A DNA stretch of 64,000 nucleotides from Hyphobacterium indicum. GTDB taxonomy: Bacteria > Pseudomonadota > Alphaproteobacteria > Caulobacterales > Maricaulaceae. The notes under the pieces are model-generated. The model searched no databases and was not told the DNA's origin. It was given only the letters and a program-made list of their open reading frames with translations. A program made the translations under genes and the position numbers. Location: NCBI RefSeq assembly GCF_003129605.1, contig NZ_QBDX01000004.1, forward strand, positions 682,001 through 746,000, read 5' to 3'. Positions 29,795-47,700 of the stretch are shown here, piece by piece (the stretch's first letter is position 1; each line of letters begins with the position of its first letter).

Positions 29795-30349
29795 ATGAAG
29801 ACAAAGGAAGAAACACCGGAAGCAGATGGCACCGCGCCCGGCGGAAGCCGTGGCTGGCGTGTTCCCGTCCTTGCCGGCCTTGCCATACTGGTGGCTGTGA
29901 GTGCGCTCATTGCCGGGTTATTCCTGTATTTTCAGAAGGCGGATGCCCCGCCGGATGATCTCTGGGCGGAAGCCACTGTCACGGCGGACCCCGAGTGTGA
30001 TCCGGAAACAGCCGGATGCGATATACTCCTGCCGCCCGTCCCGGCCGGCCATGGCTCGGACGGCAGCGGCCCGGCGATCTCCCTGGTGACATACCCGGAT
30101 CTGGATGACCCCATCGCCCAATGGGGGCGTTGCATGGACACCGTATTCACCTGTCTCGGGCCGCCGGATAACGCCAGCGCAGAAGAGCGTGCCGGCCGGT
30201 TGCGCGCCTGCGTGGCCGGGGCCGAATGCCCGCAGGCCTGTCTGGATCGATATGCCGGACAGGCGGGCGGCGATCTTGACGCCGCCGTCACTGCATTCGA
30301 GCGGATTTTCGTAGCGGAGGATGCATGGTGCGCACCGCGACAGGACTAG
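29795..30349 (+). CDS. Membrane-anchored Cys-rich hypothetical protein, first gene of the VWA cluster
   Basis: The predicted protein has about 184 residues from the ATG at 29795 (GGGAG 5 bp upstream). A cytoplasmic tail of about 22 residues precedes one transmembrane helix (VPVLAGLAILVAVSALIAGL). The rest is probably periplasmic: an acidic linker and a compact domain with eight cysteines, including CMDTVFTC, CVAGAECPQAC and a last C near the end, suggesting several disulfides. I recognise no family. Its 3' end overlaps the large VWA gene by 25 bp, so the two are likely coupled and may share an export or envelope role. Confidence 0.7.
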   Translation: MKTKEETPEADGTAPGGSRGWRVPVLAGLAILVAVSALIAGLFLYFQKADAPPDDLWAEATVTADPECDPETAGCDILLPPVPAGHGSDGSGPAISLVTYPDLDDPIAQWGRCMDTVFTCLGPPDNASAEERAGRLRACVAGAECPQACLDRYAGQAGGDLDAAVTAFERIFVAEDAWCAPRQD

Positions 30350-33300
30350 CCCGGCTGAAAGCATATGCGCTCCGCGCCGCTCGCATGGCCGCAGTGATAG
30401 GTATCGCATTCTTTGCCAGCGCCCATGACACGAAAGATGCGGCACGGGTCGGTGAGTTTGCGGGGCATGTCGCGGACCGCGACAAATGGCACGCCATCTA
30501 TTACTGCCATGGCAGCACGCTGGATAATTGCCGGGAAAACGAACATGCCTGGCTGGCGCAGACAGCGCTGGACCGTGCAGCCCCCGGCTCGCCATGGAAT
30601 TTCTCGGCCGACAATGACCTGATTGTCCGGGATCTGGCGACCGGCTATTTCCGGCCCGAAATCGGCGAACGGCCAGGATCCTCCTGGGATCCAGATAATG
30701 TGATGGGCCTGCCCCGGCGCCGCCTGCCGGGTCCGGCCAATTTCGCCGGCATTCCGGATTTCAGCTACACAATCTATGACTGGATCAACCGCAATACGGA
30801 CTGCCCGCCGGCGCCGGGCGGCACCATGCCCGGCGGCGTGCCCGGCGATTGTCACAACTACACTTACTGGCAGGGGGGTGGTTTCAACGCCTCCCATTTC
30901 GGCTCCCAGGCGACGCGATCCTATCTCCGGCTGCACCAGACCGCGCTGTCCCTTGCCGCGCGCGCCAGCAGACTTCGGAGCCGGATTTCGGAAGAGCCGG
31001 CCAATCTCGAAGCCTATCGTGATGTGATCCGGGAAGCCGAGCATCAAGCGCTGGCATACGAAGCCTACGCCCAGCATTTTCTCCAGGACCGGTGGGCGAT
31101 GGGGCATATGTTCGAACGCTGGGGCTCTCCGGAATACAACGCCAATGGCATTGGCTGGGATCCGACCCGGGCCCTTTTGGCGGGCGGATTCACCGGCATT
31201 ATTCACGGCCATCAATCCGTGACCCACATTCCCGACGCCCTGTCCTCGCCAGAAGTCGGGGTGACGTCCACCCTCACCAATCTCACAGCGCGGGCACTGA
31301 TCTCGCTGGGGCAGGCTGTGGGACTGGTCGATGATGACGCCGAACCGCCGGCCGCATCCATCTACATACCGGTCTGGCGCCACGCCAATGAGGAGGAAAC
31401 CCATCCCGGCGTCGGTGATTACCGCGCCTGGGACATGATGCGCCTGCGTTATGCCGCGCGCCTCGATGCGGCCGGTCATCTGCTGGAATACAATTCGGAA
31501 ACCGCTCTGCCGGTTCAGCGTCAGCGGCGGGAATTGCTGGCCTGTTCGACAGCCGGCTATCGCGAAGTGATCGCCGCCTTCGGGCAGAACACAAGCGGGT
31601 ACGGTATTGATGATGTCGCGCTCAGCCCGGCCTCCGGTGAATCGCTCGGCAGCCATTGTTTCGACATGTGGGCGACCAATGAATCCATGGTGGCTGGCAT
31701 GGGGCCGGAATTCATAGCGGCCGGCGGCATCGCTACCCTGTCCCAGGCACTTGTGCGGATCGGAACCTATGCCGCCGAGGCGTCCGGCCGGGGGTCGCGC
31801 AATGCGCTGCCGCAGGAGCTGCGGGGCCTGGTCTACACGCGCAATGACACGCTTTCGCTGACCCGCATCTATGTACGGGCGCGGCTGGCGGCCTTCCGCG
31901 ATTCCAACGGGATTGACCTGGCCCAGGGGGGACTCGGCAATCTGTCAAACATTCCGACCGGCGACACCTATCCGATCGCCAGCTATTTCGAACCGGCAGA
32001 TCTGACCACCCTGCCGGATTCCGATCCGCGCGGACGCGACGCGGAAACTGTATTCGGTTTCTACAACCGGGCGCACGCCGACTATTTCTGCACGCGGTCC
32101 GAAGAGCTGCTTCAGTCGCTCCGGGGCTCGTCAGAGGAGGCAGAACGCGCAACCTGCCGCATACTGGCTCAGCGGCTTTATGAAGAGGCACGCGGCGACA
32201 GTCCGGACGTGGAAGAATATTCGTCCGTCATGCTCAACGGGTCGCGCGAGCGTACCGAACCCCTCTGCCGTCTGGCTTCCACAGCCTGGTCCGCGCCACG
32301 CTTCGGGGGCGATCGGATCGACATCCTGCATCCCGGCTATGTTCCCTGGAATTTCGCGTCGGACGAATCCGGCGCTTTTGCGATGGATGACGCCCAGCTG
32401 TCTTACCAGTCAGTCGCCAACTGGTGCGACCGGACTCCGGTGATCGACGCGCAGGAAGAAGAGGACCTCCGTGCAGCAGGTGTGGTGACCGTCATCGAGA
32501 ACACCCGCGACACACTCGAAATCCGCGGGCAGCATTTTGGCAGCACACAGGGTCAGCTGGCGATCGGCCTGACGCCCGGCTCCGCCATCCCGATCAGCGA
32601 CATCCTGTTCTGGACAGATACCCGCATCCGTTTCCGCGTGGAAGCGGAATTCGGCCAGCTGGCCTTTCGCGAGTCGGCGGCAAGCGTGGAGCGTTTCAGC
32701 GACAGCTATGTTTTCGTCACCCGGTCCGGAGACGCGGCCGAAGATCCCGGACAGGCCAGTGCCGGGCGGTTCGTGATCCGGCGGGAAGTGCGGCCGCCGC
32801 GCTTGGTGCAGGTCGAAATCACGGCACGCGGTGAAGATCAGCCCGTCTATTTCATGCAGCGACCCGCACCTTCTACCAGCCTGGACGAGGATGCCGACTG
32901 GTTGTTCGAGCCAAGCACGGAAGACTCGCATGAGGATACGGATACGGCCTTCCGGCCCGTAGGGCCTGGGGCCCGGCTGGTGATTGAACTGACCTTTGAT
33001 GAAGACATTGACCGCGATGCCGACGGGCAGATTATCAGCCTTGGTGGCGACCCTCTGGAAGGCCGATGGACCAGCCGCCGTCACTGGCGCGGCGAACGCG
33101 CGATTCCGGAAGGGGATGCCTTCAACGCCTTGCGAGGCGCCCAGACACTGGAAGTCTATGTGCAGTCAGAACGAGGCGCATGGACGGATGGTGATCCGGA
33201 ACGTCCCGGTTCCGAGCCGGACCGCGAAACCGTTCTGTTGTTTGACCGGATTCCTGTGGTTCTGGAATCCATCGGGGTGCGAGGTGCCGGCCGGAATATC

Positions 33301-34590
33301 TATAGCGCAGTCTGGACGGACGGGCCGGATTATCAAAGCGCGCGCAATCTCACCCTGGCGGCACTGGACCCGGAGGCGCGGACTCTGGACGTGGCGGAAG
33401 CCCGCGCAGCACCCGCCAGCGGCCCGGGTCAGATGCGTCTCGAATTTTCCGCTGAACTGGATACCGCGCCGGCAATTCGCGTCGGAGGAACAGACGCAGA
33501 CGTCAGCGGGGAGGGGCGGCGATGGCGCGCACGCTTCGATCTGGAAGAGGCAGCGTCACTCCAGGACGCCAATGGCGATATCCAGATAACAGTGACGCTG
33601 ACCGGTCAGGCACTTGACGCTGATCCGTCCACACCTGCAGCCATCGCCCCGCCGGATCAGTGGTCAAACAGGATTTACTGGACAAGCCTGGACCAACGCC
33701 GCGGCGGACCGGAAGGCTCGGATGGCGGGCCAGACCTCTGGCACCGGCTCGGCGAACCGCCAGCCTTGTCGCTTCTGGTGATTCTTGATGCGTCCGGCTC
33801 GATGGGAGAAAGCGGCCGGATGGCAAATGCGCGATCCGGCATCAACCAGACATTCGAATCCCTGCCGGAAGACCAGGTCATCGAATTTGCCGCCGTGGCG
33901 TTTCAGGATTGCGGATCTTTCAGCACCCGCACCTTCACCCGGGATGCCGACTCGATCCGCAGCTTCCTGACATCGATCACACCACTTTCCGGCACACCGC
34001 TGGCGGCCGCGCATGATCAGGCGCGCGCCATATTCCTGTCTCAGGCTGATCCGCGCGCGGCTGAATGGCGCTATGCCAGTTTCACGGATGGCGCTGAAAC
34101 CTGCGATGGAAATGTCGCCGGCGCGATCCGGGATCTTGAGGCCGTGTTGAGCCGTCACCGGGCACCCGATCGCTCGCCGCCGGAACCGGAACAGGCACCC
34201 GCTCCGGAGCGCGCCGTTGATTGCCGGGCGACCACCGGAACCGGCTATTCGGTCGAGGTCAGGGATGGCGGCCGGCATCTCGACCGGATCACACTGGTGG
34301 AACGTGTCTATCTCGAACGCGCCTTGCCCGACGGGCGCTGCATCGCCTCGTTCGAGACCCGTGAATACGGAGTCTATTACGGACGCACGCGAAGCTCGGG
34401 CTTGCGATGGGGGATCAACAGCCAGCCCAGCGAGAGCCAGACGCTGATAGGCCGCAGCTCACGCGGCGAGGCCGATCTGTTACGGGTAAGGGGCATTGCC
34501 AACGCAGCCGCTGCAGGCCTTGTTGATCTTCCCACGGCACGGCGGGAGATCGAGCAGGCGGTTCGCGCAGCGGAGCCGGAGGAAGGATGA
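30325..34590 (+). CDS. Exported 1421-residue protein: Zn-phospholipase C-like domain plus C-terminal VWA domain
   Basis: An N-terminal hydrophobic segment (MAAVIGIAFFASA) looks like a signal peptide or anchor. Residues of about 50-320 hold E73-H74, H240, H251, D255 and H261. The pattern HFLQDRWAMGH has the H-x3-D-x5-H spacing of zinc phospholipase C and S1/P1-type enzymes. The middle (about 700-1090) contains short Ig/IPT-like segments (DTLEIRGQHFGSTQG, LVIELTFDEDIDRD). The C-terminal von Willebrand A domain carries an intact metal-ion site: D1155-x-S1157-x-S1159, T1224, D1255. I know of no protein with this exact order. A secreted hydrolase or adhesion machine is an inference. GTG at 30328 is an alternative start. 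Confidence 0.75.
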   Translation: MVRTATGLARLKAYALRAARMAAVIGIAFFASAHDTKDAARVGEFAGHVADRDKWHAIYYCHGSTLDNCRENEHAWLAQTALDRAAPGSPWNFSADNDLIVRDLATGYFRPEIGERPGSSWDPDNVMGLPRRRLPGPANFAGIPDFSYTIYDWINRNTDCPPAPGGTMPGGVPGDCHNYTYWQGGGFNASHFGSQATRSYLRLHQTALSLAARASRLRSRISEEPANLEAYRDVIREAEHQALAYEAYAQHFLQDRWAMGHMFERWGSPEYNANGIGWDPTRALLAGGFTGIIHGHQSVTHIPDALSSPEVGVTSTLTNLTARALISLGQAVGLVDDDAEPPAASIYIPVWRHANEEETHPGVGDYRAWDMMRLRYAARLDAAGHLLEYNSETALPVQRQRRELLACSTAGYREVIAAFGQNTSGYGIDDVALSPASGESLGSHCFDMWATNESMVAGMGPEFIAAGGIATLSQALVRIGTYAAEASGRGSRNALPQELRGLVYTRNDTLSLTRIYVRARLAAFRDSNGIDLAQGGLGNLSNIPTGDTYPIASYFEPADLTTLPDSDPRGRDAETVFGFYNRAHADYFCTRSEELLQSLRGSSEEAERATCRILAQRLYEEARGDSPDVEEYSSVMLNGSRERTEPLCRLASTAWSAPRFGGDRIDILHPGYVPWNFASDESGAFAMDDAQLSYQSVANWCDRTPVIDAQEEEDLRAAGVVTVIENTRDTLEIRGQHFGSTQGQLAIGLTPGSAIPISDILFWTDTRIRFRVEAEFGQLAFRESAASVERFSDSYVFVTRSGDAAEDPGQASAGRFVIRREVRPPRLVQVEITARGEDQPVYFMQRPAPSTSLDEDADWLFEPSTEDSHEDTDTAFRPVGPGARLVIELTFDEDIDRDADGQIISLGGDPLEGRWTSRRHWRGERAIPEGDAFNALRGAQTLEVYVQSERGAWTDGDPERPGSEPDRETVLLFDRIPVVLESIGVRGAGRNIYSAVWTDGPDYQSARNLTLAALDPEARTLDVAEARAAPASGPGQMRLEFSAELDTAPAIRVGGTDADVSGEGRRWRARFDLEEAASLQDANGDIQITVTLTGQALDADPSTPAAIAPPDQWSNRIYWTSLDQRRGGPEGSDGGPDLWHRLGEPPALSLLVILDASGSMGESGRMANARSGINQTFESLPEDQVIEFAAVAFQDCGSFSTRTFTRDADSIRSFLTSITPLSGTPLAAAHDQARAIFLSQADPRAAEWRYASFTDGAETCDGNVAGAIRDLEAVLSRHRAPDRSPPEPEQAPAPERAVDCRATTGTGYSVEVRDGGRHLDRITLVERVYLERALPDGRCIASFETREYGVYYGRTRSSGLRWGINSQPSESQTLIGRSSRGEADLLRVRGIANAAAAGLVDLPTARREIEQAVRAAEPEEG

Positions 34591-35573
34591 TGCGGACCCT
34601 GTTGCCAGCGCTCGCCGCCGCCCTCCTGCTTTCCGTCTCAGCCGCGGCCCAGCAACGGCTGGAGGCCGGCGAAGTGGCGATTTTACGGCTGAATGACGCG
34701 GGTGAGACCCGTGTCCGGATTGATCTGGATCATGCGTCAGAGGTTCAGCTCCCTGTCTTCGCGGGTCCGGAGGCGGTGACTGCGGTATTCATCGCGCCGG
34801 CCGCAGAAGCAGACAGGACCCCGGCACAACGACTCGTTTTGCCTTCTGGCCGTCACGATCTGGTTGTCTCAGGCGGGCCGGTGGGAGAAACCGAAACCGT
34901 CATACAGGTCCGGCCGCAATTCCTGCCACCAAATGACGCGTTCGAGCCGAACGATACACCGGATACGGCATGGCAGGCCGGTCTGCCCTTCCACCGCCTG
35001 GTCCGCCTGTCGCACGGCGACTGGGACTGGTTCCGGGTCGATCCGGGCGGCAGCGGAATCCTGGGCGTCCAGCTTCTGGGTAACCGGGGGCCATACGAAG
35101 GCCCGCAGATCCGCGTTGTTGATGCGGCCGGTCTTGAGCTTTACGTCAGCCCGCCGGGGACGGGGGGGTGGAATGGTATGCGTTATGTCCGCGTGGACAG
35201 GGGGCCGGTCTTTGTGGGTGTCACGGATTCCTCGCCCTGGGCCGAACAGCAACCGGACGGCTTCAAGACACTGGAAATCCGGCGGATCGAGCCAGTCACC
35301 GGGATATCCGGACGCCTGATTACGCTCAGCGTGGAAACCGACAATCCGTCCTTTTTTCAGCTTGATCTGGTTGGCGAAGCGCTCGGCATGGACGTACGGG
35401 CGGCCGATGAAGCGGACCGCGTGGCCGCCGAGCTCGGGCAAGTCGTCCGGGGCGAAGGGTTTGGTTCGAGCGGTCAGGGCCGGATTATCTGGCTGATTCT
35501 GGGACTGGCGCTCGCAAGTGCGGCCGCCGGCGCAATCATCATTCTCCGGCGCCGTGCGCGGGGTGAGGAATAG
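34587..35573 (+). CDS. Exported PPC-domain protein with C-terminal membrane anchor
   Basis: This 328-residue protein has a clear signal peptide (MMRTLLPALAAALLLSVSAAAQQ). A bacterial pre-peptidase C-terminal (PPC) type domain begins near residue 112 with NDAFEPNDTPDTAWQAGLPF and continues through GDWDWFRVDPGG. A C-terminal helix (IIWLILGLALASAAAGAIII) followed by RRRARGEE anchors it in the membrane. Its ATG overlaps the stop of the VWA gene by 4 bp, so the two are coupled and probably act together at the cell envelope, with this protein as a possible docking partner. Confidence 0.75.
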   Translation: MMRTLLPALAAALLLSVSAAAQQRLEAGEVAILRLNDAGETRVRIDLDHASEVQLPVFAGPEAVTAVFIAPAAEADRTPAQRLVLPSGRHDLVVSGGPVGETETVIQVRPQFLPPNDAFEPNDTPDTAWQAGLPFHRLVRLSHGDWDWFRVDPGGSGILGVQLLGNRGPYEGPQIRVVDAAGLELYVSPPGTGGWNGMRYVRVDRGPVFVGVTDSSPWAEQQPDGFKTLEIRRIEPVTGISGRLITLSVETDNPSFFQLDLVGEALGMDVRAADEADRVAAELGQVVRGEGFGSSGQGRIIWLILGLALASAAAGAIIILRRRARGEE

Positions 35574-35723
35574 ATCCGGCACGGCAGCCATCCCCTCAGC
35601 CGGAACCGGCCATCTCCAATCCCCGGCGCGGGCAGATATTCTGCAAAAGCCGGCTCAGAAGACCCGGGGTGCAACCAGCAAGCGGACACGCCCTGAACGC
35701 CAACGATGACGGAAACAGCGCCT

Positions 35724-35748
35724 GCGGCAAGCACCCCGCCCTTGCCGC
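35724..35748. other. Hairpin in the gap before the PPC-protease gene
   Basis: GCGGCAAG-N9-CTTGCCGC is a perfect 8 bp stem in the 241 bp gap 35574-35814, with no T-run. It could attenuate read-through between the anchor gene and the protease gene, or be incidental. I see nothing else in the gap. Confidence 0.35.
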
Positions 35749-35814
35749 CGCCGCCAGCCGTGGCTAAACCCGTTTCCGGACAGGGTTTGTTATATTCCAG
35801 GCAAAGGGGCGTTC

Positions 35815-38070
35815 ATGCGTTACGGGTTTCTCCCACTTATTCTGGCCTGCGCGACAGCGTCGGCAATGGCTCAAACGGCTGCAGAGGATGTTCGCCCCGG
35901 CACCGTCAGCGAGGATCAGCCCAGCGCCGATTTCCAGATCGATCTGACCGGCGGCCAGCTGGTCACGCTGACAACCCGCTCGGATACTAATTTCGACACC
36001 GTGCTCCGGGTCACCGGCACCGATGGCCGCACGCTGGCCGAGAATGACGATTATTCCGGCGGCGGCCTGCAGTCGCAGATCATCTTCCAGCCGCCGCAGC
36101 CAGGCATCTACACGGCATCGGTCACCGGATATGGCGGCGCCTTCGGCGCGTTCGAACTGGTGGTCAGCGAGGGCGTGGATTTTGGTCTGTCGGACGCGGC
36201 CGAAATCCGGGTTCAGGACGTTGTCACGCTCGACAATGCAAATCCGACGCGGTCCGTCAGTGCGGATTTCGCTGAAGGCGACATAATCGTGGCCAATACC
36301 TATGCGGTGAGCCCCGGGCTCGACACCACACTGGAGCTGCGGTCGCCATCGGGCAGCATCATCGCGCAGAATGATGACAGCCGGGCCGGCGGCACGCTCA
36401 ACTCCCAGATCATCCTGCAGATCGGTGCGGCGGGCCGCTATGACATCGTGGTCGGGTCTTATTCTGGCACCGAAACCGGCGATGTTCTGGTGTCGGTCGC
36501 GATCGATCCGAACGCGGAAATTCCCTATGATTTTACGGCGATCGAAGGCACAGAGATCGCCCGTCATTCCGGTGTGATCGACAATGACCAACCGTCCCGC
36601 GAATACCCTGTCGCGCTCGAAGCCGGTCAGACCCTGTTGGTCCTGGCCGACGCATTGTCGGGAGATCTCGACCCGGTACTGCGCATCCTGGGCCCCGATG
36701 GCGAACCGGTATCGCTGAATGATGACCGTGGCGACGGATCGCTGAATTCCGCCATTGCGCTGACGGTAGAAGAGACGGCCGAATATACAGTGATCATGGA
36801 GCGCTATCGCGGCGGCAACAGCGCCGGCGAATACAGCCTCGTGATGTCGCTGGTCGATGCCGGCATCGTCGACGAGTTGCGAGCGCTGCGCGAAAACATC
36901 TCGCTGAGCGGGGAGCGCCTGTCGATCCGCACCGAGGACTTTGTTGTCTATTACACGCTCGAGGGAAGCGATGCCTCCTCCGAAGCCTATGCACGCGAAG
37001 TCGGCGTGGCCCTGCAGGAAAACCTCGATGCACAGCGGGCCCTGGGGTTTGCCGAGCCTATCCGCGATGAAGAGGGGCTTTACCGCGCCTATGTGTCGGA
37101 AGTCGGCGGAGCGCTGGGATTTGCGCGTCCGGTCGAGACCGTGTTCGACAACCCCTACACGCCCGATGTCCGGGAGGAAGCGGCGTCGCGCGCTATTTTC
37201 GTCATTGATAATGATTTCGTCGGCCTTGGCGATGCCCCCCCGTCCAGCCTGATCCGCGCCACCGCGACGCACGAGCTGAATCACATTGTCCAGTACGGGT
37301 ATGACTCGGTCGAAGGACTGAACTGGCTTTATGAATCCACCGCTTCCTGGATCGAGACCGTCACCGTTGGCGATGATCAGGACGCCACCGACTATGTGTC
37401 GGCCGATTTTGCCCGGCCCGGCCGGTGCTGGAGCACATCGGGCGAGGGGCTGGATTACGGCCAGTGGACCTTGCTGCAATCCATTGCCGACAGTCATGGC
37501 AACGGGATGATCGTCCGCTTCTGGGAAAACGCCGCGCACATGGACGGGCTGGAGGTCATGGACACAGCCCTGCGCGAAGACGGCTCGCACCTGCTTGAAG
37601 CCATCACCCGCTGGCGGGCCCGGAATTATGCGCTGGATTACGATCTGGCGCCGGTTTTCAACCGCACCGTGGAGATTTCAGGTACGCTCGGCACCACTGG
37701 CCAGACTTCAGGGAAGGGCAGCGTGGAAGAGCTGGGCGTCAATTACTTTGCGCTCGATCTGGACGGGCCGGCCAATCTCTCGGTCAGCCGGGCAGACAAT
37801 ATTGAACTCTTTGTTCTCGGCCAGCGCGGCGGCGAAATCCAGGTCATTCCCCTTGGTCAGTCCGGCACCATCGACCCGGCCGAATGGGAACATGCCGGAC
37901 TGATGGTATTGAACACATCCATTCCGTCTGCGCCCGGCGAATGCCGCGGACAACGCTATCAACTTGATTTGTCAGACGCCAGCGATGCCATGCCGGCGGC
38001 GGCCTTCCGCTTCAGCGACCGGCACTTCATCATTCCCGGTGAGGACGAGGCGGCTTCAGACGAAGAATAG
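35815..38070 (+). CDS. Exported protein with three PPC-like repeats and an HExxH metalloprotease-like core
   Basis: This 751-residue protein has a signal peptide (MRYGFLPLILACATASAMA). Three tandem PPC-type repeats cover about residues 24-355; each has a D(T/P)xL core followed by a NDD motif (AENDDYSGG, AQNDDSRAGG, SLNDDRGDG). Residues of about 375-640 look catalytic: T485-HELNH (H486, E487, H490) then NWLYESTASWIE, with E507 and E514 as candidate third ligands. This resembles gluzincin-type peptidases, but the family is not certain. A C-terminal beta-rich domain ends in an acidic tail. PPC repeats usually aid secretion or substrate binding. It lies 241 bp after the PPC anchor gene in the same direction. 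Confidence 0.78.
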   Translation: MRYGFLPLILACATASAMAQTAAEDVRPGTVSEDQPSADFQIDLTGGQLVTLTTRSDTNFDTVLRVTGTDGRTLAENDDYSGGGLQSQIIFQPPQPGIYTASVTGYGGAFGAFELVVSEGVDFGLSDAAEIRVQDVVTLDNANPTRSVSADFAEGDIIVANTYAVSPGLDTTLELRSPSGSIIAQNDDSRAGGTLNSQIILQIGAAGRYDIVVGSYSGTETGDVLVSVAIDPNAEIPYDFTAIEGTEIARHSGVIDNDQPSREYPVALEAGQTLLVLADALSGDLDPVLRILGPDGEPVSLNDDRGDGSLNSAIALTVEETAEYTVIMERYRGGNSAGEYSLVMSLVDAGIVDELRALRENISLSGERLSIRTEDFVVYYTLEGSDASSEAYAREVGVALQENLDAQRALGFAEPIRDEEGLYRAYVSEVGGALGFARPVETVFDNPYTPDVREEAASRAIFVIDNDFVGLGDAPPSSLIRATATHELNHIVQYGYDSVEGLNWLYESTASWIETVTVGDDQDATDYVSADFARPGRCWSTSGEGLDYGQWTLLQSIADSHGNGMIVRFWENAAHMDGLEVMDTALREDGSHLLEAITRWRARNYALDYDLAPVFNRTVEISGTLGTTGQTSGKGSVEELGVNYFALDLDGPANLSVSRADNIELFVLGQRGGEIQVIPLGQSGTIDPAEWEHAGLMVLNTSIPSAPGECRGQRYQLDLSDASDAMPAAAFRFSDRHFIIPGEDEAASDEE

Positions 38071-38187: not shown

Positions 38188-38947
38188 TCAGGCCGTTTCC
38201 TTTTCCGAATCCTGGCCGGCGACGGCCACCAGCGCTTCATAGAGCTTGCGCGCATTCACCGGCTTTCCCAGTACGCCATCAAAACCGATGGACTCGAAAT
38301 GCCGGACACGCTCCCCGACAACATCAGCGGTAAAGGCCAGGACATGGACAGGGTTTCCGCCGGCCGCGGATTCCCGTTCGCGCAAGTGTTTGATGGCGAT
38401 TTCTCCATCCATTTCCGGCATCTGGATGTCCATAAAGACAACGTCGTAACGTTGCGCCGCAACCCTGTCGAGCGCCTCAAGCCCGGTCTTGGCGATATCG
38501 GGGGTGATGCCGAACTCGCCCAGCAACAGCTTCATGGTTTCGATATTCAGCGCATTGTCCTCAACAAGGAGCACGGAAATATCGCCAAGCTGTGCGGCAT
38601 CCCCCATCCCTTCGGCGGGCCGGGTTTCAGCAAGATGAGCTTCGCGAAGCGGCAAATGAACAGTGAAGCAGGAACCCTTGCCGGGCTCGGACCGGACCTC
38701 AATATCTCCCCCCTGTGCTTCCGCCAGCCCCTTCACAATTGCGAGCCCCAGTCCGCTCCCGCCAAACTCACGCGTCGTGGAGCTGTCAGCCTGCATGAAA
38801 CGGTCGAAAATCCGCGCCTGAGCCTCCTCCGGGATTCCGATCCCGGTGTCTTCGACTGCAATCTCCAGGCAGGTGCCGCCAGCTGCGCAAAAACCCGGAT
38901 GGGCGGTCACATGCACATGACCGGCTTCTGTGAACTTCAGGGGGTGG
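38188..38947 (-). pseudogene. Hybrid sensor histidine kinase, 5' end removed by an IS6-family insertion
   Basis: The remaining frame encodes the C-terminal part of a hybrid kinase. It begins in the HATPase N-box (PLKFTEAGHVHVTA read from the junction). The ATP-lid and G boxes (VEDTGIGIPEEAQARIFDRF, GGSGLGLAIVKGLAEAQGG) and then a receiver domain with phosphoacceptor aspartate in VVFMDIQMPEMDGE follow. The sensor and HisKA regions are absent, cut at about 38947 where the IS end begins, and are not on the other side of the element. A GTG at 38916 could still start translation of the receiver part, but kinase function should be lost. Confidence 0.85.
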
Positions 38948-39740
38948 TGTCAGACGAAAGCGAACTGGTCTCAGATTGGCAGGGTTTCGTCGATTTAGGC
39001 GGCAAGTTGCCGCCATTCGGCCAGCGCGATTTGCCGGTTCTCCTTGAACCAGTCTCGGTCATTGATGTGGCGCTCTAAATTGAAGTGGTTGTGGACGGAC
39101 GAATGGACGGAGACGAATTTCTGGAGACTTCGCATTCGCCTGAATCTGAGCATCGCCCGTTCTCGTCTTCGTAGGGGCTGATGTGAGTTTTCGGCCCTGT
39201 TGTTGAGCCACCTCCCCACGTCCTGTTTGTCTTCGTTTCCGATGACCTTCATGGCAGCTTTGTAAGAGCGCAACCGGTCCGTCACGATGACTTCCGGGCT
39301 GCCATATCGCTTCATGGCTTTGCGCAGAAACTTCAACGCTGCTTGGCGATTACGGCGCTTGGTGACGAAAGCTTCCAACACCTCACCTTCGTGATCGACA
39401 GCGCGCCAGAGATAGTGCGTCTCACCGTTTATCTTCACAAACACTTCGTCCAGATGCCATTGCCACTGGGGCCAGGCGCGTAGCCGATCGGCGCGCCTTT
39501 GCCGGATCTCCGCAGCGAATATCGGGCCGAACCTGTTCCACCAGAACCGCACCGTCTCATGGCTGAGATCGATACCGCGCTCGTGCAGCAGATCTTCCAC
39601 GTTTCGAAGCGACAGCGGAAATCGGACATACATCATCACCGCGAGACGGATGACCTCAGGTGATGTCTTGAAGTAGCGAAATGGGTTTTTCATCCAGGCA
39701 GTTTGGCCGACGAACCGATAATGACCGGTTTAATCTGACA
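38948..39740 (-). mobile_element. IS6-family insertion sequence
   Basis: The element is about 0.8 kb with one transposase gene. Terminal imperfect inverted repeats are visible: GTGTCAGACGAAAGCGAACTGG at the left starts like TTGTCAGATTAAACCGG read inward from the right. The exact ends are uncertain by a few bases. The 8 bp flanks do not match (left ends CAGGGGGT, right begins TGCCTCGA), so no simple target duplication is present. This suggests rearrangement or deletion after insertion, with the element marking the edge of the resistance island. Confidence 0.8.
38995..39693 (-). CDS. IS6-family DDE transposase
   Basis: This 232-residue transposase has the IS6 pattern. An N-terminal HTH (RFPLSLRNVEDLLHERGI) is followed by the catalytic triad segments WHLDEVFVKINGE (first D), VIVTDRLRSYKAA (second D) and NNRAENSHQPLRRRER (E). 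The frame is intact, so the element may still be active. It belongs to the MKNPFRYFKTS-type group common in alphaproteobacteria. Confidence 0.93.
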   Translation of the reverse strand: MKNPFRYFKTSPEVIRLAVMMYVRFPLSLRNVEDLLHERGIDLSHETVRFWWNRFGPIFAAEIRQRRADRLRAWPQWQWHLDEVFVKINGETHYLWRAVDHEGEVLEAFVTKRRNRQAALKFLRKAMKRYGSPEVIVTDRLRSYKAAMKVIGNEDKQDVGRWLNNRAENSHQPLRRRERAMLRFRRMRSLQKFVSVHSSVHNHFNLERHINDRDWFKENRQIALAEWRQLAA

Positions 39741-39775
39741 ATGCCTCGAGCGGTGCTGTTTACGGTGAATGACCC

Positions 39776-40222
39776 ATGGAAACGAAAACCCGAACCCCGA
39801 TCGCAAGTCTTGGCGCCCTCTCATTCGCGGAGTTGAAGGCAAGTTGGCATTCCCTGTTTGAAGTTCCCCCGCCAGTCTTCAATCGGCGCTCGCTCGAAGC
39901 GCGCCTCGCTTATCGAATTCAGGAATTCGAGCATGGCGGGCTGAAGGACCGGTCGCACAAGCGGCTTCTGGCCCTCGCCGACGAACTTGATGGCGGTGAC
40001 CACACGAAACGGCGCAAGCGAGCGGATAACAAGCCCATTGCCGGCACCCGCCTGGTCCGCGAATGGAAGGGCGTCGAATATCTCGTGACGGTCCGGCGCG
40101 ACGGTTATGAGTTCAATGCCAAGCACTACAAATCCCTTTCAGCCATCGCTTTTGCGATTACCGGCACGCGCTGGAATGGCTGGAGTTTCTTCGGGCTTTC
40201 AGACTCCCGGGGGCGGCGATGA
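39776..40222 (+). CDS. DUF2924 protein, recombinase-module partner
   Basis: This 148-residue basic protein matches the DUF2924 family. The family pattern is an N-terminal LKASWHSLFEVPPPVFNRRS, then GTRLVREWKGVEYLVTV and a C-terminal AIAFAITGTRWNGWSFFGL. It is almost always encoded directly before a large serine recombinase, as here, where the genes overlap by 4 bp (ATGA at 40219). It is thought to bind DNA and assist the recombinase, but no biochemical role is established to my knowledge. Confidence 0.88.
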   Translation: METKTRTPIASLGALSFAELKASWHSLFEVPPPVFNRRSLEARLAYRIQEFEHGGLKDRSHKRLLALADELDGGDHTKRRKRADNKPIAGTRLVREWKGVEYLVTVRRDGYEFNAKHYKSLSAIAFAITGTRWNGWSFFGLSDSRGRR

Positions 40223-41508
40223 ATTTCGCATCGCAATCTACTGGCCCGAAACGCTGCGCGGTCTACACACGAAAATCCCGCGAAGAGGGACTCGATCAGG
40301 AGTTCAACAGCCTTGATGCGCAAGCCGAAGCCTGCCGCAACTTCATTGCCAGTCAGCGCCATGAAGGTTGGGTCGCGATCGACGAGGAGTTCCGGGATCC
40401 AGGCTATTCAGCCGGCACACTAGAACGCCCTGCTATTCAGCGCTTGATCAAGCGGGTCGAGCGGGATGAGGTCGACATCATCGTCGTCTACAAGATCGAT
40501 CGCCTCAGCCGGTCGATCATGGACTTTGCCAAGCTTGTCGAACTCTTCAATGCGCATGACGTCAGCTTCGTGTCGGTCACTCAGTCGATCAATACCAGCG
40601 ATGCGATGGGCAAGCTCTTGCTCAACGTGCTGATGTCCTTTGCCCAGTTTGAACGTGAGAACACGGCCGAGCGCATCCGCGACAAGATCGACGCCTCGAA
40701 GCGGCGCGGCATGTGGATGGGCGGACCTTTGCCCTTTGGTTATATCAGCCGCGACAAGCAGCTGGTGCAAAAGCCGACGGAAGCCCGGATCGTGCGGCAC
40801 CTCTTCAAGCGCTTTATAGAGCTCGGTTCGGTCCAGCGCCTGTCGGAAGAAACACGGGCCTCGGCTTCGATGCCGGACTTCGCGAAAAGCCGCCTCTACA
40901 AGATGTTTTCCAACCCCATCTATATCGGGAAGATCCGCCACAAGGGTGCGGTCTATGACGGACGCCATAAAGCCATCGTTGATGAGATCACCTGGGCAAA
41001 GGTTCAGGCCATCCTGAAGACCGACAATCGCCAAAGGGCATCGCGGACGCGCGCGCAAACGCCGGCCCTGCTGAAGGGGATCCTCTTCGGACCTGATGGC
41101 GCGCCCATGTCTCCCAGCCATACGAACAAGGGCAAGAAGCGTTATCGCTACTATGTCAGCCAGACCGTGCTGGCGAATGGTGCTGGCGCCTGTCCAATCG
41201 GGCGCATCAGCGCGACCGAGATCGAAAGCCTTGTGATCGAGCGCATCAAGGGGCTCCTCCACGAACCGGAGATCCTGTTCAGCGCATGCCGTGCGTCGAA
41301 AGTGATCGGGCTAACGGCAAGCGAGGAGGAACTCGCCGCATTGATCGACGAGCTGACACCGATCTGGGAGAATCTCTTTCCGGAAGAGCAGGCACGCCTG
41401 GTCAACCTCCTCGTCGAGAAGGTTGTCATCCACCTCGAGCATGTCGAGATAACTTTGCGCCTTGATGGTCTGCAGCGACTTGCTGGCGAAGCACGCGAGG
41501 CTGCCTGA
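40219..41508 (+). CDS. Large serine recombinase
   Basis: This 429-residue site-specific recombinase has an N-terminal resolvase domain with catalytic serine S20 in VYTRKSREEGLDQE. The conserved KIDRLSRSIMDFAKL and FAQFERENTAERIRDK segments follow. The recombinase domain begins at about residue 155 (GPLPFGYISRDKQLV). The zinc-ribbon cysteines of classical large serine integrases are missing (GILFGPDGAPMSPS), as is usual for the DUF2924-linked subgroup. It probably mobilises or once mobilised the neighbouring island; no attachment site could be fixed. Confidence 0.92.
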   Translation: MNFASQSTGPKRCAVYTRKSREEGLDQEFNSLDAQAEACRNFIASQRHEGWVAIDEEFRDPGYSAGTLERPAIQRLIKRVERDEVDIIVVYKIDRLSRSIMDFAKLVELFNAHDVSFVSVTQSINTSDAMGKLLLNVLMSFAQFERENTAERIRDKIDASKRRGMWMGGPLPFGYISRDKQLVQKPTEARIVRHLFKRFIELGSVQRLSEETRASASMPDFAKSRLYKMFSNPIYIGKIRHKGAVYDGRHKAIVDEITWAKVQAILKTDNRQRASRTRAQTPALLKGILFGPDGAPMSPSHTNKGKKRYRYYVSQTVLANGAGACPIGRISATEIESLVIERIKGLLHEPEILFSACRASKVIGLTASEEELAALIDELTPIWENLFPEEQARLVNLLVEKVVIHLEHVEITLRLDGLQRLAGEAREAA

Positions 41509-41511
41509 TCC

Positions 41512-41910
41512 ATGGAACGCCTAGCCCGGATAGAAGGCGAACGCATCGGCAACCGGCTTATCCTTCGGGTGCCGGTCAGCTTTCGTAAGCATCGGGGCCG
41601 CAAGGAGATCCATGCAGCTGGCGCCGGTCCGGTAATCGCCAAACCGGACCACGCTCTCCTCAAAGCGGTAGCACGCGCGCATCGATGGCGCGCATTGCTC
41701 GACAGCGGTAAGTTTGAAACTGTCCGCCATCTGGCCCGCGCCGAGCGTATCTCCGAGACCTATCTCGCCCGCGTGGTTCGAATGACGCTCCTGTCGCCAA
41801 AGCTGGTTGAAGCCGTCCTGACCGGAAACCCGCCGGCTGGGCTGTCGCTCAAGACCGCGCTGGAGCCCTTTCCTCTCGACTGGTCAGAACAGGATGCCTG
41901 GTTCGCCTGA
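41512..41910 (+). CDS. Third protein of the DUF2924-recombinase module
   Basis: This 132-residue basic protein lies 3 bp after the recombinase. A predicted helix-turn-helix-like stretch (HLARAERISETYLARVVRM) sits at about residue 75, and the C-terminus reads FPLDWSEQDAWFA. Proteins of this type follow the DUF2924 and recombinase genes in many alphaproteobacteria, so the three make a conserved unit. A DNA-binding or directionality role is inferred. Confidence 0.75.
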   Translation: MERLARIEGERIGNRLILRVPVSFRKHRGRKEIHAAGAGPVIAKPDHALLKAVARAHRWRALLDSGKFETVRHLARAERISETYLARVVRMTLLSPKLVEAVLTGNPPAGLSLKTALEPFPLDWSEQDAWFA

Positions 41911-42421: not shown

Positions 42422-42976
42422 TCAAATATATCGCCTCACCTTCTGCGCATACTGATTGAAAGCCTCACCAAAGGTTCTACGCATGTGCGGCTCCTCTACC
42501 CATGTGATGAACACATGGATGATCGCCATAAAAAAGAGCGTGGAAGCCAAAGCCAGTTCGGAACCCGCAATGATGGCCGCTCCGAGGAACATGCCCGCAT
42601 AACCGACATACTGTGGATTGCGTGTATGACGGTATATACCGTGCTGGATCAGCTCGTCTTCAAGTAAGCCGTAGACCCGCTGTTGCGATCCGTAGGCATA
42701 TCGTCCCAGATAGATGACAGCGGCGCCACCGATGAACATCACTGTTCCGATGGCGACTATGATGGGGGATGGCGCAAATAGGCTGCCGCGATCCAGCCAT
42801 GATAGCGCGAGTGTCGCGATGAAATGACCATGCATGATGACACCAGACATAATCGCGGTTTGAGGTGACCATTTGCCTTGGTGTTTAAACTCGGCCTTCG
42901 CCCTAAGCATAAAGGGAAGCGAAAGCGTTGCTGTTATGACCACATAAGCAATAACTCCGATGAGCAGGGGTGACAT
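42422..42976 (-). CDS. Isoprenylcysteine/phospholipid methyltransferase-like membrane protein
   Basis: This 184-residue protein has about four transmembrane helices and the ICMT/PEMT-type C-terminal signature GIYRHTRNPQYVGYAG followed by EEPHMRRTFGEAFNQYAQ. These residues bind S-adenosylmethionine in the family. The start overlaps the stop of the CDF gene by one base (TAATG), so it is coupled to the metal exporter. A lipid or small-molecule methylation role in metal tolerance is not known. Confidence 0.8.
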   Translation of the reverse strand: MSPLLIGVIAYVVITATLSLPFMLRAKAEFKHQGKWSPQTAIMSGVIMHGHFIATLALSWLDRGSLFAPSPIIVAIGTVMFIGGAAVIYLGRYAYGSQQRVYGLLEDELIQHGIYRHTRNPQYVGYAGMFLGAAIIAGSELALASTLFFMAIIHVFITWVEEPHMRRTFGEAFNQYAQKVRRYI

Positions 42977-43611
42977 TACGCGTCTCCTGTATTGGCCATG
43001 GCTGAGTGTTCACGAAGCTCATCGAGCGCCTGTTTACAGATCGACCATGCCGACCGGCTGAAGATGCCGGCGAGCACAAAGGCGAGTAGCAGATCGGGCC
43101 AGGCTGATCCGGTGGCGGCCACAAGACCGCCAGCAATCATCACACCGACATTGCCGATGGCGTCATTGCGCGAGCAAAGCCAGACGGAGCGAACGTTTGC
43201 GTCGCCGTCTCTCCATTTTAGCAGAATGAGCACGCTGGCCGCGTTGGCGAGAAGCGCCGCAAAGCCAACAATGCCCATGGTTTCTGCAACAGGTGGCTCT
43301 CCCGACAAAGCCCGCATCAGTGTCATAGCTAGGACGGAAATCGCAATCGCGAACAAAAGGCCGCCTTTGAACAATGCGGCTTTGGCTCGAACCGCAATGG
43401 CAGAGCCGATGACCAAAAGGCTGATGGAATAGGTCATGGTATCGCCCGCGAAATCCAGTGCATCGGCCTTGAGGGCTTGGGAGCCCGACGCAAAACCTGC
43501 GGTTATCTCGACGACAAACATGACGAGATTGATAAAAATAACAGCCCAAAGCGCGCGGCGATAAGCGGCTGAGGTACCATCAAATTTTTGGTCGTTTTCG
43601 CAACAACTCAT
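42976..43611 (-). CDS. Cation diffusion facilitator-type metal exporter, short form
   Basis: This inner-membrane divalent-cation exporter has about 211 residues and six predicted helices. Metal-site aspartates are in KADALDFAGDT (helix 2) and CSRNDAIGN (helix 5). The usual cytoplasmic C-terminal domain is absent, so it is a short CDF of the kind found beside MerR regulators. The ATG at 43611 has AGGAG 8 bp upstream and the start MSCCEN carries two cysteines. The MerR-type promoter at 43646 drives it. Confidence 0.88.
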   Translation of the reverse strand: MSCCENDQKFDGTSAAYRRALWAVIFINLVMFVVEITAGFASGSQALKADALDFAGDTMTYSISLLVIGSAIAVRAKAALFKGGLLFAIAISVLAMTLMRALSGEPPVAETMGIVGFAALLANAASVLILLKWRDGDANVRSVWLCSRNDAIGNVGVMIAGGLVAATGSAWPDLLLAFVLAGIFSRSAWSICKQALDELREHSAMANTGDA

Positions 43612-43645
43612 TTTCTTGACTCCTAAGTTCAAGATGGAGTCTAAT

Positions 43646-43664
43646 TTCTACAGCGACTGTAGAA
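43646..43664. promoter_or_regulatory. MerR-type operator/promoter for the CDF gene
   Basis: TTCTACAG-CGA-CTGTAGAA is a perfect 8 bp inverted repeat. Read on the minus strand it lies between TTGCTT (-35) and TAGACT (-10) with 19 bp spacing, the extended spacer characteristic of MerR-family activated promoters. It lies between the divergent CDF and merR-type genes. Confidence 0.75.
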
Positions 43665-43675
43665 GCAAGAGCAAA

Positions 43676-44122
43676 ATGCAAAAAGAATTCACCATCGGCC
43701 AAGCGGCGAAAACATCGGGCGTCAAAGTGACCACCATTCGCTATTATGAAAGCGTCGGCTTGATGCCCGAACCGCGCCGCGTTGAAAGCGGTCGACGAAT
43801 CTACGGGCAAGCGGCCGTAGACTTACTTGGCTTCATTCGGCACGCACGTGATTTGGGGTTTACCGTCGATGCCATTCGCGACCTGATCGATCTTCAGGAA
43901 AACCCTGGCACCGATTGCGCCAAAGCCGATGAACTTGCCCGGCGGCACCTCGTCGATACGCAAACGCGCATTGAGCAGCTAAGGGTGCTCGAACGTGAAT
44001 TAGAACGCATGATCGACACTTGTTCCGGCGGAGAAGTCGGAACATGCGAAATTGTCACAAGCCTGTTCGACCACTCCAAATGCCTGGCTGACCACAAACA
44101 GAAAGCATCGAAGGCATCATAA
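43676..44122 (+). CDS. MerR-family metal-responsive regulator (Cd/Pb/Zn type)
   Basis: This regulator has about 148 residues from the ATG at 43676. The MerR helix-turn-helix reads FTIGQAAKTSGVKVTTIRYY, followed by ESVGLMPEPRRVESGRRIYG. Cysteines in the effector-binding region are seen in CSGGEVGTCE and a final KCLADH, and C-rich loops like this bind divalent metals. It diverges from the CDF exporter across the operator at 43646 and is its likely regulator. The metal cannot be fixed from sequence. Confidence 0.9.
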   Translation: MQKEFTIGQAAKTSGVKVTTIRYYESVGLMPEPRRVESGRRIYGQAAVDLLGFIRHARDLGFTVDAIRDLIDLQENPGTDCAKADELARRHLVDTQTRIEQLRVLERELERMIDTCSGGEVGTCEIVTSLFDHSKCLADHKQKASKAS

Positions 44123-44125
44123 CGA

Positions 44126-44656
44126 TTATTGGTCGCTATTTGGCTTTGCAGCGCCCGATCTCCAGCCAAGAAGTAAAAGAGCAACGCCGACAAATATGAG
44201 AACATCGGCCAGGTTGAATGTTGGCCAACGAGTCGCCTGCCATCCAAAGTCCAAATAGTCCGTGACGGCCCCATCGCCGAGCCTGTCAATCGCATTTGCA
44301 AGTCCACCAGCCGCAAAAAAGGTGCTGGCAGCGTGGATGAGTTTTGAGCTTTGCCGGGCGGCCCAAATTAAAGCAAAAACAACCAAGATGATGGCGAAAC
44401 TTGAAAGCAGATAGGGCGCAATCCAATGCGAACTATCCATAATGCCAAAACTAACGCCTCGATTGTGGCCCAAGGTAAGGTTAAAGCCAGGAAAAATCGA
44501 TATCGACGTGCCAACTTCGGTCAAAAATCGCTCAATTTTGAGTTTCACCAAAAGGTCGAGAGCGATCATAGCGGGCAACATAACCAGTAGGCCGCCGTGA
44601 ATTTTGCCTGGTCCAAAGCGGTGGCGCGAAAAAATTGTGGTCTTAAAAATCGACAT
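44126..44656 (-). CDS. lspA: Lipoprotein signal peptidase LspA, island copy
   Basis: Signal peptidase II cleaves prolipoproteins. The 176-residue protein has four transmembrane helices and the catalytic segments GGLANAIDRLGDGAVTDYLDF and TFNLADVLIFVGV, with the two aspartates. This is an extra copy in a metal-resistance island rather than the housekeeping gene, which usually sits beside ileS. Such copies are common next to MerR/CDF genes. It may process the CzcB lipoprotein encoded downstream (49154), which has a lipobox. The gene converges on merR with only 3 bp between the two stops. Confidence 0.93.
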   Translation of the reverse strand: MSIFKTTIFSRHRFGPGKIHGGLLVMLPAMIALDLLVKLKIERFLTEVGTSISIFPGFNLTLGHNRGVSFGIMDSSHWIAPYLLSSFAIILVVFALIWAARQSSKLIHAASTFFAAGGLANAIDRLGDGAVTDYLDFGWQATRWPTFNLADVLIFVGVALLLLGWRSGAAKPNSDQ

Positions 44657-44761
44657 GGAGAAAGCCTACTTTGCGAGTGACTCGCCGTCAGTTAATGGGT
44701 TCCGTCTTCGGTAATGGAAATGGCAGGCGTATCTTCCTGCCATTTCCAAACTTGCCTTCTG

Positions 44762-47700
44762 CTAGCCAAGCGATCCTTTTGGCCCAGGTCTTTGCGGATG
44801 AGGCGCAAACCATTTGTAGACCGCCGGTAGAACCAGCAATGTCAAAACGGTCGAAGTTACCAATCCGCCGATAACTACGGCTGCGAGAGGTCGTTGAACC
44901 TCCGAGCCGATGCCGGACGCAAAAAGCAACGGCATCAAGCCAAGGCCGGTAGTTGTCGCGGTCATCAGAACGGGCTGAGCACGACGCACTGCTGCCTCCA
45001 CGCTGAACACGTCAACGTCCGAGCGTTCCTTTGCGAAGCGGTCGAGGAATGAGACCAAAACCATGCCATTACCTAGGGCAATGCCGAAGAGAGCAATAAA
45101 GCCAACGGAAGCTGGAACCGATAGGTTCTGACCGGTTAGCCACAGCGCCGCGATACCACCGACCAGCGCCAACGGGATGTTGGCGATGATCAAGAGTGCG
45201 CTTTTAAGCCGTCCAAAGCTAAAAAGTAGCAAGAGGAACACGACACCCAGTGTGACTGGGATGACGACGGCGAAACGCGCATTTGCTTGTTGCTGAAGTT
45301 CGAACTGACCGCCCCATTCGATAAAATACCCTGGCGGTAACGCGACATTTTCGGCAACGGCATTTTGCCCTTCTCGGACGAACGAGCCTATGTCGCGTTC
45401 GCGGACATTGGTTTGAATGGCAATGTACCGTTGGCCATTCTCACGCGTGATCTGCCGAGGCCCCTCGATACGTTCAATGACTGCGACCTGGCCGAGGGGT
45501 ATGATTTCTCCTTCGGGGCCATTCAATACGATACGACTGATGCGTTCGGCATTCACCCGATCTTGTTCGCGGTAACGGACGATGATGTCAAAGCGTCGGA
45601 CACCTTCGAATACCTGGCCAGCTTGCGAGCCACCAATCGCTGTTCGAACCACTGACAAAACATCTTCCACGTTCAGGCCATAACGGCTGATCGCTTCCCT
45701 GTTGACGGTAATCCTAAGCTGCGGAGCGCCGGTCACCTGATCTGTCTGGACATCCGCCGAACCGGCAATATCGCGGATGACATTTGCAATTTGCGCCGCG
45801 TATTCCTCAAGGACCGACATGTCCTCTCCGAACAGTTTGATCGCCAAGTCCGCTTTAGTACCTGTCAGCAATTCGTCGGTTGCTGCCGCAATCGGTTGCG
45901 TGAAGTTAAAGCGAGCCCCCGGAAAGGATTCAAAGCTTTCGCTCATCATCGCGAGCAACGCATCTTGTGTCCGGGCAGATTCCCACTCACCGCGCGGCGC
46001 AAGCGCCACGAAGGCCTCCGCACTGTTTACCGGGTCTGCGTGGGCACCAACCTCGCCGCGGCCAATACGCGTGACGATGCGCTCAACCTCAGGGAAGTTG
46101 GATTGTAGCTGTTGCTCAAAGCGCGTTACCGTTTCTCGGGCTTCCGGCAACGAGATAGATGGCGCCATGGTCAGCCGGACCAGCAAATCACCCTCGTTCA
46201 TGCGGGGCGTAAACTCAGAGCCCAATCGCGGGAATATCGCACCGCCAACAAGCAGCATTGCTGCTGCTAGCGTGAGTGCTGCCCATCTCTTGTGAACAAA
46301 GAAGCGTACCAAAGGTGCAAACCGGCGTTCGTAGAAATCAGGTTCATCCTCACCCGATGACTTTTTGCCAATTTTCAAGCCGAGCATGGATGCAGCCGGT
46401 GCAAGAAGCACGGCGAACACCAATGATCCTGCCATCGCAAAAACAACAGAGAAGGCCAGTGGTCGGAACGTTTTGCCTTCGACGCCTTCCAACGTCAAAA
46501 TTGGGACGAACACGATCACCACAATCAGGATTGCAAAGACGAGCGGCTGTAAGACTTCCGCACATGCGCCAGCGATAAGAGCGCGTTTGTCGTCGCCCTC
46601 TTTCGAAGCGGTCAGGATACGGTTTGCGTTTTCAACGATCACAACCGCACCATCCACCATCATCCCGATAGCGATAGCGATTCCACCTAGTGACATCAGG
46701 TTGGCGGATACGCCAAAGAGCTGCATTGCGAGCAAGGCAAAACCCACTGAAAACGGGATTGAAGCCACGACAATAAGGCTAGGTCGCCATCCTCGCAGGA
46801 AGAAGAGCAATATGATGGCGACAAGTAGCGCGCCCTGCCACAAGGCCGTGGTCATGGTGCCCACAGCGGCTCCTACCAATTCTGACTGATCATAGTAGGG
46901 AACAGCCCTCACGCCTGGCGGCAATGTTTCGTTGATCCGTTCAAGACGGTCATGAACGCGGGCGATCACTTCGTTGGTATTGGCACCAAGGAGTTTGAGA
47001 ACCAGCCCAGCAACCACTTCGCCTTGACCATCCATGGTCGCCATGCCTTGCCGAGGCGCGCCGCCGATCTCTATGTTCGCGATATCGCGAACACGCACCG
47101 GCACACCGTCTTCGACTTTCACGATAATATCTGAAAGGTCATGGATGCCCTGAGCCAGCCCGACCGCACGAACCGTGTATTGCTCGCTGTTTTCGATCAA
47201 AAACTGAGCCCCGGCATTGGCATTGTTGGACTCAACAGCCGTTACGATATCTTCGATGGACAGTTCGTATCTCAACAAAGCCTCGGGTCGAACATTGATC
47301 TGATACTGCTGTTCGAAACCTCCAAGCGATAGAACTTCGGTGACACCTCGGACGGTTTGAAGGTCAAATTTGACCTGCCAATCCTGCAACGTCCGCAACT
47401 GAACGCCATCAAGATTTTCATCCGACGTTTCGAGGAAGTAGAAGAGAATTTGGCCTAGGCCGGTCGTGATCGGCCCCATACCTGGATCGCCAAACCCTTC
47501 GGGTATTTCTTCTCGGGCTTGCTGAAGGCGTTCTCCGACAAGTTGGCGCGCCCAATATATGTCGACGCCATCTTCAAAATAGATGTTGACGACGGACAAA
47601 CCAAAGTTCGATGTCGATCTCACTTCTCGAAGCCGAGGCAATCCATTCATGGAGGTTTCAACCGGAAACGTGACGTATCGTTCGACTTCTTCCGGGGCGA

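Follow-up and report, generated by a model that had tools for sequence, protein, structure and literature searches.

The closest described counterparts of the locus reported here are the phospholipases C (PLC; PF00882) and the S1-P1 nucleases (PF02265), two families that we take to share a single Pfam clan (CL0368). In S1 nuclease, according to the excerpted text of PMC5201275, the signal sequence is followed by an N-terminal Trp, and zinc is bound via the main chain of this Trp and the side chains of His and Asp residues. The zinc cluster of the S1-P1 family is given as nine residues (one Trp, three Asp, and five His) in an excerpt of the AtBFN2 paper (PMC4144908). The Het-C domain, in the excerpted part of its description (PMC3482391), is also tied to the PLC/S1-P1 group just at borderline significance and also has a His/Asp signature. 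Here, we describe an exported protein whose helical N-terminal part appears, from its motifs, to carry a signature of the PLC/S1-P1 nuclease type, together with the small Cys-rich protein encoded directly upstream. The window (the whole 64,000-nucleotide stretch of Hyphobacterium indicum DNA that was analyzed, from a genome of 2.79 Mb) contains the following features.

29795-30349, + strand: P1, ORF of 184 amino acids counted from ATG; small membrane-anchored Cys-rich protein with a hydrophobic segment (ca. residues 25 to 50) and a Cys domain (residues 52 to 184)
30325-34590, + strand: P2, ORF of 1,421 amino acids; exported multidomain protein with an apparent signal peptide, a helical N-terminal part (P2N), an Ig-like domain, and a VWA domain
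30424-31326, + strand: P2N helical domain with candidate metal ligands H74, D145 (or D152), H191, H251, D255, H261, and H294, roles suggested by motif order
32482-32784, + strand: Ig-like (IPT/TIG-like) beta domain of P2, ca. residues 720 to 820, from AF2 strands and a weak profile match
33772-34047, + strand: VWA domain of P2, Pfam match to residues 1150 to 1241, with D1255 just past the end of the match
34587-35573, + strand: P3, ORF of 328 amino acids; exported, with a hydrophobic segment at the C terminus and a PPC-like stretch (D-A-FEPNDT)
35815-38070, + strand: P4, ORF of 751 amino acids; putative PPC-repeat HExxH metalloprotease, a neighbor outside the cassette

The original prediction of four same-strand ORFs, the first three overlapping, was confirmed in full, with overlaps of 25 nt (P1/P2) and 4 nt (P2/P3) and a 241-nt gap ahead of P4. 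The exported or anchored character ascribed to the products also held up, as P1 has one strongly hydrophobic N-terminal segment and P3 has hydrophobic segments at both its N and C termini (signal peptides were called by eye and hydropathy). Matches over Pfam cutoffs were limited to VWA in P2 and to PPC and DUF6055 in P4. Among named records, the closest P2 relatives were found in a sister metagenome-assembled genome (MAG) (96% identity) and in records labeled Maricaulis (52 to 66%). Comparison with the sister genome showed that all four genes are under purifying selection, with NG86 dN and dS values of 0.087 and 0.319 for P1, 0.018 and 0.170 for P2, 0.025 and 0.218 for P3, and 0.024 and 0.212 for P4.

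The H251-x3-D255-x5-H261 motif first noticed in P2 is indeed present and conserved in every row of the P2N alignment that has the column. Within this alignment, which has a mean column identity of 26%, D145, H191, H251, D255, and H261 were identical in 36/36 rows, H74 in 33/33 and H294 in 35/35 of the rows with the column; the ordered set of five His and two Asp is thus invariant wherever the column is present. Four further residues (D152, H177, H204, and E246) were also invariant in all 36 rows. Among places for a last acidic ligand, position 297 was variable (among 35 rows, E in 19, Q in 8, including the window, R in 6, and K in 2), and D365 was conserved in 34/34 rows, yet it lies 71 residues past H294. 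Of the 33 rows with a residue just after the apparent signal peptide, 25 have W there, 6 have Y, and 2 have H. The window protein, with its apparent mature N terminus at H34, and its sister have H instead of W. In a control set of 27 S1-P1 nucleases read by eye, the first mature residue was W in 20, Y in 3, and F in 2 and was not visible in the remaining 2. The first His of P2N is 40 residues past the apparent mature N terminus, while S1-P1 nucleases have W-x4-H, and thus a closer one. An AF2 model of a 796-residue part of P2 (pLDDT of 84, pTM of 0.87) was helical around the signature, where a long helix has H251 and D255 at its end and H261 just beyond.

Similarity searches did not connect P2N to either family. 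None of the 36 members matched PF00882 or PF02265 at E values of up to 10, in a search in which the HMMER filters discard most matches above ca. 0.1. With the filters removed, the motif was in register in none of the sequences that could be aligned out of the 36 (0/22 for S1-P1 and 0/13 for PF00882), and the best P2N scores were below those of reversed sequences. Pfam and NCBIfam returned just single-member matches to P2N with E values of 0.024 or worse, and a sequence search of the PDB with P2 gave nothing. The comparison of P2N with S1-P1 and PF00882 profiles by hhalign was also negative; however, this method has little power here, since the control pair of S1-P1 versus PF00882 failed too (best P = 0.037). 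Foldseek with the 796-residue model gave no match at an E value of 0.001 or below. Antibody-type chains made up most of the best 50 of 962 rows, with E values of 0.1 or worse, which points to the Ig-like domain; for this domain, the profile search gave a weak hit to an IPT/TIG chain of the PDB (E = 0.043).

Taken against the PLC/S1-P1 superfamily, P2N shares, in most rows, an aromatic residue at the apparent mature N terminus, as well as the H-x3-D-x5-H motif, five conserved His, and the helical structure at the signature, and it is exported, as S1-P1 nucleases are. It differs in that sequence profiles and Foldseek find no match, in the larger size of P2, with its Ig-like domain and the constant partner gene P1, and in a candidate ligand set of five His and two Asp versus three acidic ligands. 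We consider the PLC/S1-P1 reading likely in mechanism and unproven in kinship. Assignment of P2N to Het-C was rejected on the grounds of the wrong spacing (HxxxDxxxxxH in P2N versus HxxxDxxxH in the excerpted Het-C description [PMC3482391]) and of the lack of any Het-C Pfam match in the 36 members.

In order to count loci, P2 relatives were gathered from genome collections and from one scan of named genome contigs (38 loci). We dropped L016 (which is without P2N); L019, L021, L022, and L036, which are the same loci as L011, L014, L015, and L013, respectively; L055 to L057, L078 to L083, and L087 to L093, which by coordinates and lengths were the window or already counted; L084, a likely copy of L035; and the weak or partial matches L099 to L101, L104, and L105. 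In the resulting set, profiles derived from aligned P1 and P2N sequences placed P1 directly upstream of P2N in 49/49 loci, and in all 49 the P2 open frame extends to the end of P1. Given that 40 of these loci had supplied sequences for the P1 profile, the other nine are the fair test; P1 was found in 9/9, and their P2 proteins have 27 to 82% identity to the closest counterpart among the 40. A 4-nt overlap between P1 and P2 was seen in 38/49 loci, as ATGA in 33 and as a GTG or TTG version in 5, and the window, where the overlap is longer, is outside these 38. The labeled organisms with the pair, as far as the tree rows go, were Pseudomonadota, Myxococcota, and one Nitrospirota MAG, and most records were MAGs. 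One of them, L049, is a MAG labeled Klebsiella pneumoniae whose P1-P2N pair clusters with rows from Myxococcota; this MAG is probably misnamed or contaminated. In L013/L036, L038, L042, and L054, the P2N frame is broken or split, by either decay or assembly error.

P1 to P3 form one compact traveling cassette with the P1-P2N pair at its core. The idea of a cluster was borne out for P1-P2-P3 as a compact operon, while the unit common to all loci proved smaller, namely, P1 plus the N-terminal part of P2. No curated family in the Pfam and NCBIfam searches fits P1 or P2N, and searches of an open-license literature library listed no account of this gene order. Beyond P1 to P3, there were no conserved flanking genes; those that were shared, such as DEAD-box helicases, occurred between near kin or in a chance-like manner.

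P1 has eight Cys, and the AF2 model of its Cys domain has a pLDDT of 92. Nothing comparable was retrieved with it: no significant Pfam relative, nothing in the PDB by sequence search, and no significant Foldseek match to the Cys-domain model (best E value of 1.0). In the window clade, the anchor type of P1 is the hydrophobic N-terminal segment. A simple hydropathy and pattern scan found a lipobox-like pattern in 22/49 loci (L032 being doubtful), chiefly in Caulobacter-like, other Maricaulis, and Myxococcota members. The P1 gene always comes first in these loci, and its product is anchored outside the cytoplasm, which fits a protein dedicated to folding, restraining, or tethering; P1 would then be a dedicated partner of P2N.

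The predicted VWA metal site is complete in the window protein (D1155, S1157, S1159, T1224, and D1255), and VWA_2 (PF13519) matches P2 with 30.8 bits versus a cutoff of 27; T1224 is replaced by I in L012. P2 resembles VWA_2 proteins in both the curated score and the metal-site residues and differs from them in being fused to P2N and paired with P3. P3 is a putative PPC protein by its sequence motif, and hydrophobic segments suggest an anchor; in Pfam, the window protein has no PPC (PF04151) match, and one of five aligned members had one with an E value of 0.0065. The VWA module was found on P2 in 11/49 loci, and in 11/11 of these the P3 gene was next. P3 was seen in none of the 38 loci without the VWA module, eight of which end too soon, with the P2 frame stopping 400 nt or less from the end of the sequence, so that P3, and in some of them the VWA module too, could not show. 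Outside the VWA clade, other C-terminal parts were present; L027, for example, has a DUF1349 match below the cutoff, and L048 has CarboxypepD_reg domains. In a tree built from 33 P2N rows, from which the short rows L040, L051, and L052 were left out, the 12 rows labeled as having VWA and P3 were one side of a branch with support values of 99/97. One of these 12 (L023) was labeled by its closeness to Maricaulis, as its contig ends ahead of the VWA module. VWA and P3 are thus seen to go together in one alphaproteobacterial clade, and we tentatively read this as a gain in that clade rather than a loss elsewhere.

One genome, G137, has the module in a different setting. Its locus (L016, 6519-11768) contains a 1,191-codon open frame that joins a P4-like protease domain to a P2-type VWA module, and behind this fusion there is a PPC-like gene with weak similarity to P3. 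The VWA module with a P3-like gene therefore looks like a unit of its own, and since it is here on a metalloprotease domain, exported hydrolases in general may use it as a docking cartridge.

The fourth gene behaved differently. P4 does have the features read from it originally, with three PPC stretches and an HExxH motif (HELNH at residues 486 to 490). It resembles the putative metalloproteases MXAN_6640 and DUF6055 by its DUF6055 match, which is above the cutoff (33.1 versus 27), and differs in that the MXAN_6640 match (E = 1.6e-28) has a score of 100.3, under the cutoff of 140. Nothing meaningful was found among PDB sequences (best E value of 0.081). Full-length P4 relatives were present in 12/32 chosen genomes, three of which (G015, G857, and G867) had one stop inside the matched stretch. 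Half of the 12 (G007, G015, G031, G832, G837, and G847) had no P2N match, and seven genomes (G021, G941, G828, G062, G295, G049, and G834) had P2 or P2N and no full-length P4; G137 has P4 just as the VWA fusion. Where both occurred, they could be far apart, on separate contigs in G814 and G857 and ca. 1.06 Mb from each other on a single contig in G898. The 15 to 17 kb around P4 of G007, G832, G015, and G031 contained no matches to P1, P2, or P3.

In the window, as in its sister, P4 comes after P3; among the loci scanned, the adjacency was confined to that sister genome. The proposal of one unit is supported for P1, P2, and P3, which recur together in 11/11 VWA-form loci, and not for P4. We therefore rejected a four-gene system, given that P4 occurs without P2 and far from P2 elsewhere; P4 is an independent neighbor, a bystander. 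On the other side stand the P3-P4 adjacency in the window and its sister and the fusion in G137, which does favor some link to P4, as it indicates that both kinds of domain can work in one protein.

Just behind P4 (window positions 38188-41907; names read from the sequence), the minus strand has a partial ORF for a sensor kinase/response regulator. The same stretch contains genes for an IS6-like transposase, a DUF2924-like product, and a serine recombinase, as well as a 132-amino-acid gene, a relative of which is directly behind P3 in L026 (15733-16137). Farther on (42425-47908), there are genes resembling metal resistance determinants, named in the same way: isoprenylcysteine methyltransferase-like, CDF-like, a MerR-type regulator, LspA, and a CzcA-like RND pump.

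We prefer to read P1-P2 as a phosphodiesterase that is exported and depends on metal, paired with an anchored protein dedicated to it; in one clade, a VWA/P3 docking module would have been added. We put the probability of this reading at about one in two. P2N might instead be an all-helical metalloenzyme with a fold of its own, the likeness of its H-x3-D-x5-H motif to phospholipase C being convergent. This is possible, if somewhat unlikely. Profiles, HMMER, and Foldseek all left PLC kinship without support, and the invariance of D152, H177, H204, and E246 is not expected from the S1-P1 set; however, a shared aromatic residue at mature position 1 would be a peculiar coincidence, and motif order and helix placement agree with the PLC reading. 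We regard as improbable a surface machine for adhesion or assembly whose helical domain would be a binding scaffold and not an enzyme. Such a machine would account for the Ig-like, VWA, and PPC-like parts, the membrane anchors, and the C-terminal parts that differ between lineages, but His, Asp, and Glu that stay invariant across 36 divergent rows suit catalysis or metal binding better than a scaffold, and the helical domain persists while VWA and P3 are not seen beyond one clade.

The distribution of P2N, which is uncommon and patchy, bears on whether P2N could be a toxin that attacks neighboring cells, with P1 as the immunity protein that protects the producer. Matches were found in 9/249 genomes of the window's order, its own included, and in 9/146 genomes of the phylum of G989, three of them weak. 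Such a patchy spread would suit a toxin, as would the two matches present in four of the nine matching genomes of the latter phylum (one pair may be a single gene split into two pieces) and the occurrence of Het-C, for which PLC/S1-P1 likeness has been argued, in polymorphic toxin-related systems, according to the excerpted text of PMC3482391. Nevertheless, we consider this explanation very improbable. Neither the window protein nor eight relatives had a Pfam toxin-delivery domain, the P1 gene precedes that of P2, and in one genome set the match was single in 7/7 matching genomes. Along similar lines, flanking genes were common just to near kin or by chance, padloc, which looks for defense systems, had no hit for the four window proteins, no copy of the window P2N was found in the plasmid collection by tblastn, and none was found on viral contigs.

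Under the preferred reading of an exported phosphodiesterase with an anchored partner, P2N would be secreted via its signal peptide, which would then be cleaved, and the new N-terminal residue would form, with the invariant His and Asp, a metal cluster resembling that of PLC/S1-P1 enzymes. The substrate would be a phosphodiester, in either a phospholipid or a nucleic acid. P1, made just before P2 from the overlapping gene, would be held at the membrane by its hydrophobic segment, or by an apparent lipid anchor in other lineages, and could fold, restrain, or tether P2N outside the cytoplasm. In the alphaproteobacterial clade, where P2 has further Ig-like domains besides the VWA domain, the VWA metal site of P2 may dock onto P3, which is anchored by its C terminus and encoded next door. 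Of this picture, the linkage of the genes, their conservation, the hydrophobic anchors, the VWA motif, and the restriction to a clade were observed directly.

A wider formulation, which we advance tentatively and at less than even odds, is that P1-P2N is an undescribed and far-diverged exported phosphodiesterase module of the PLC/S1-P1 type, present in three phyla as labeled, in which the Cys-rich P1 would control folding, activity, or location; to this, one alphaproteobacterial clade would have added a VWA-P3 docking unit, whose VWA part may be a general docking cartridge. A gene pair whose order, and for the most part overlap, is retained from phylum to phylum, and for which no family name was found, represents a defined target in the search for a new exported enzyme with a partner of its own. 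If the reading of the metal site is true, the PLC/S1-P1 group would be widened, and the locus would show a route by which a docking module can be added to a secreted hydrolase and then inherited.
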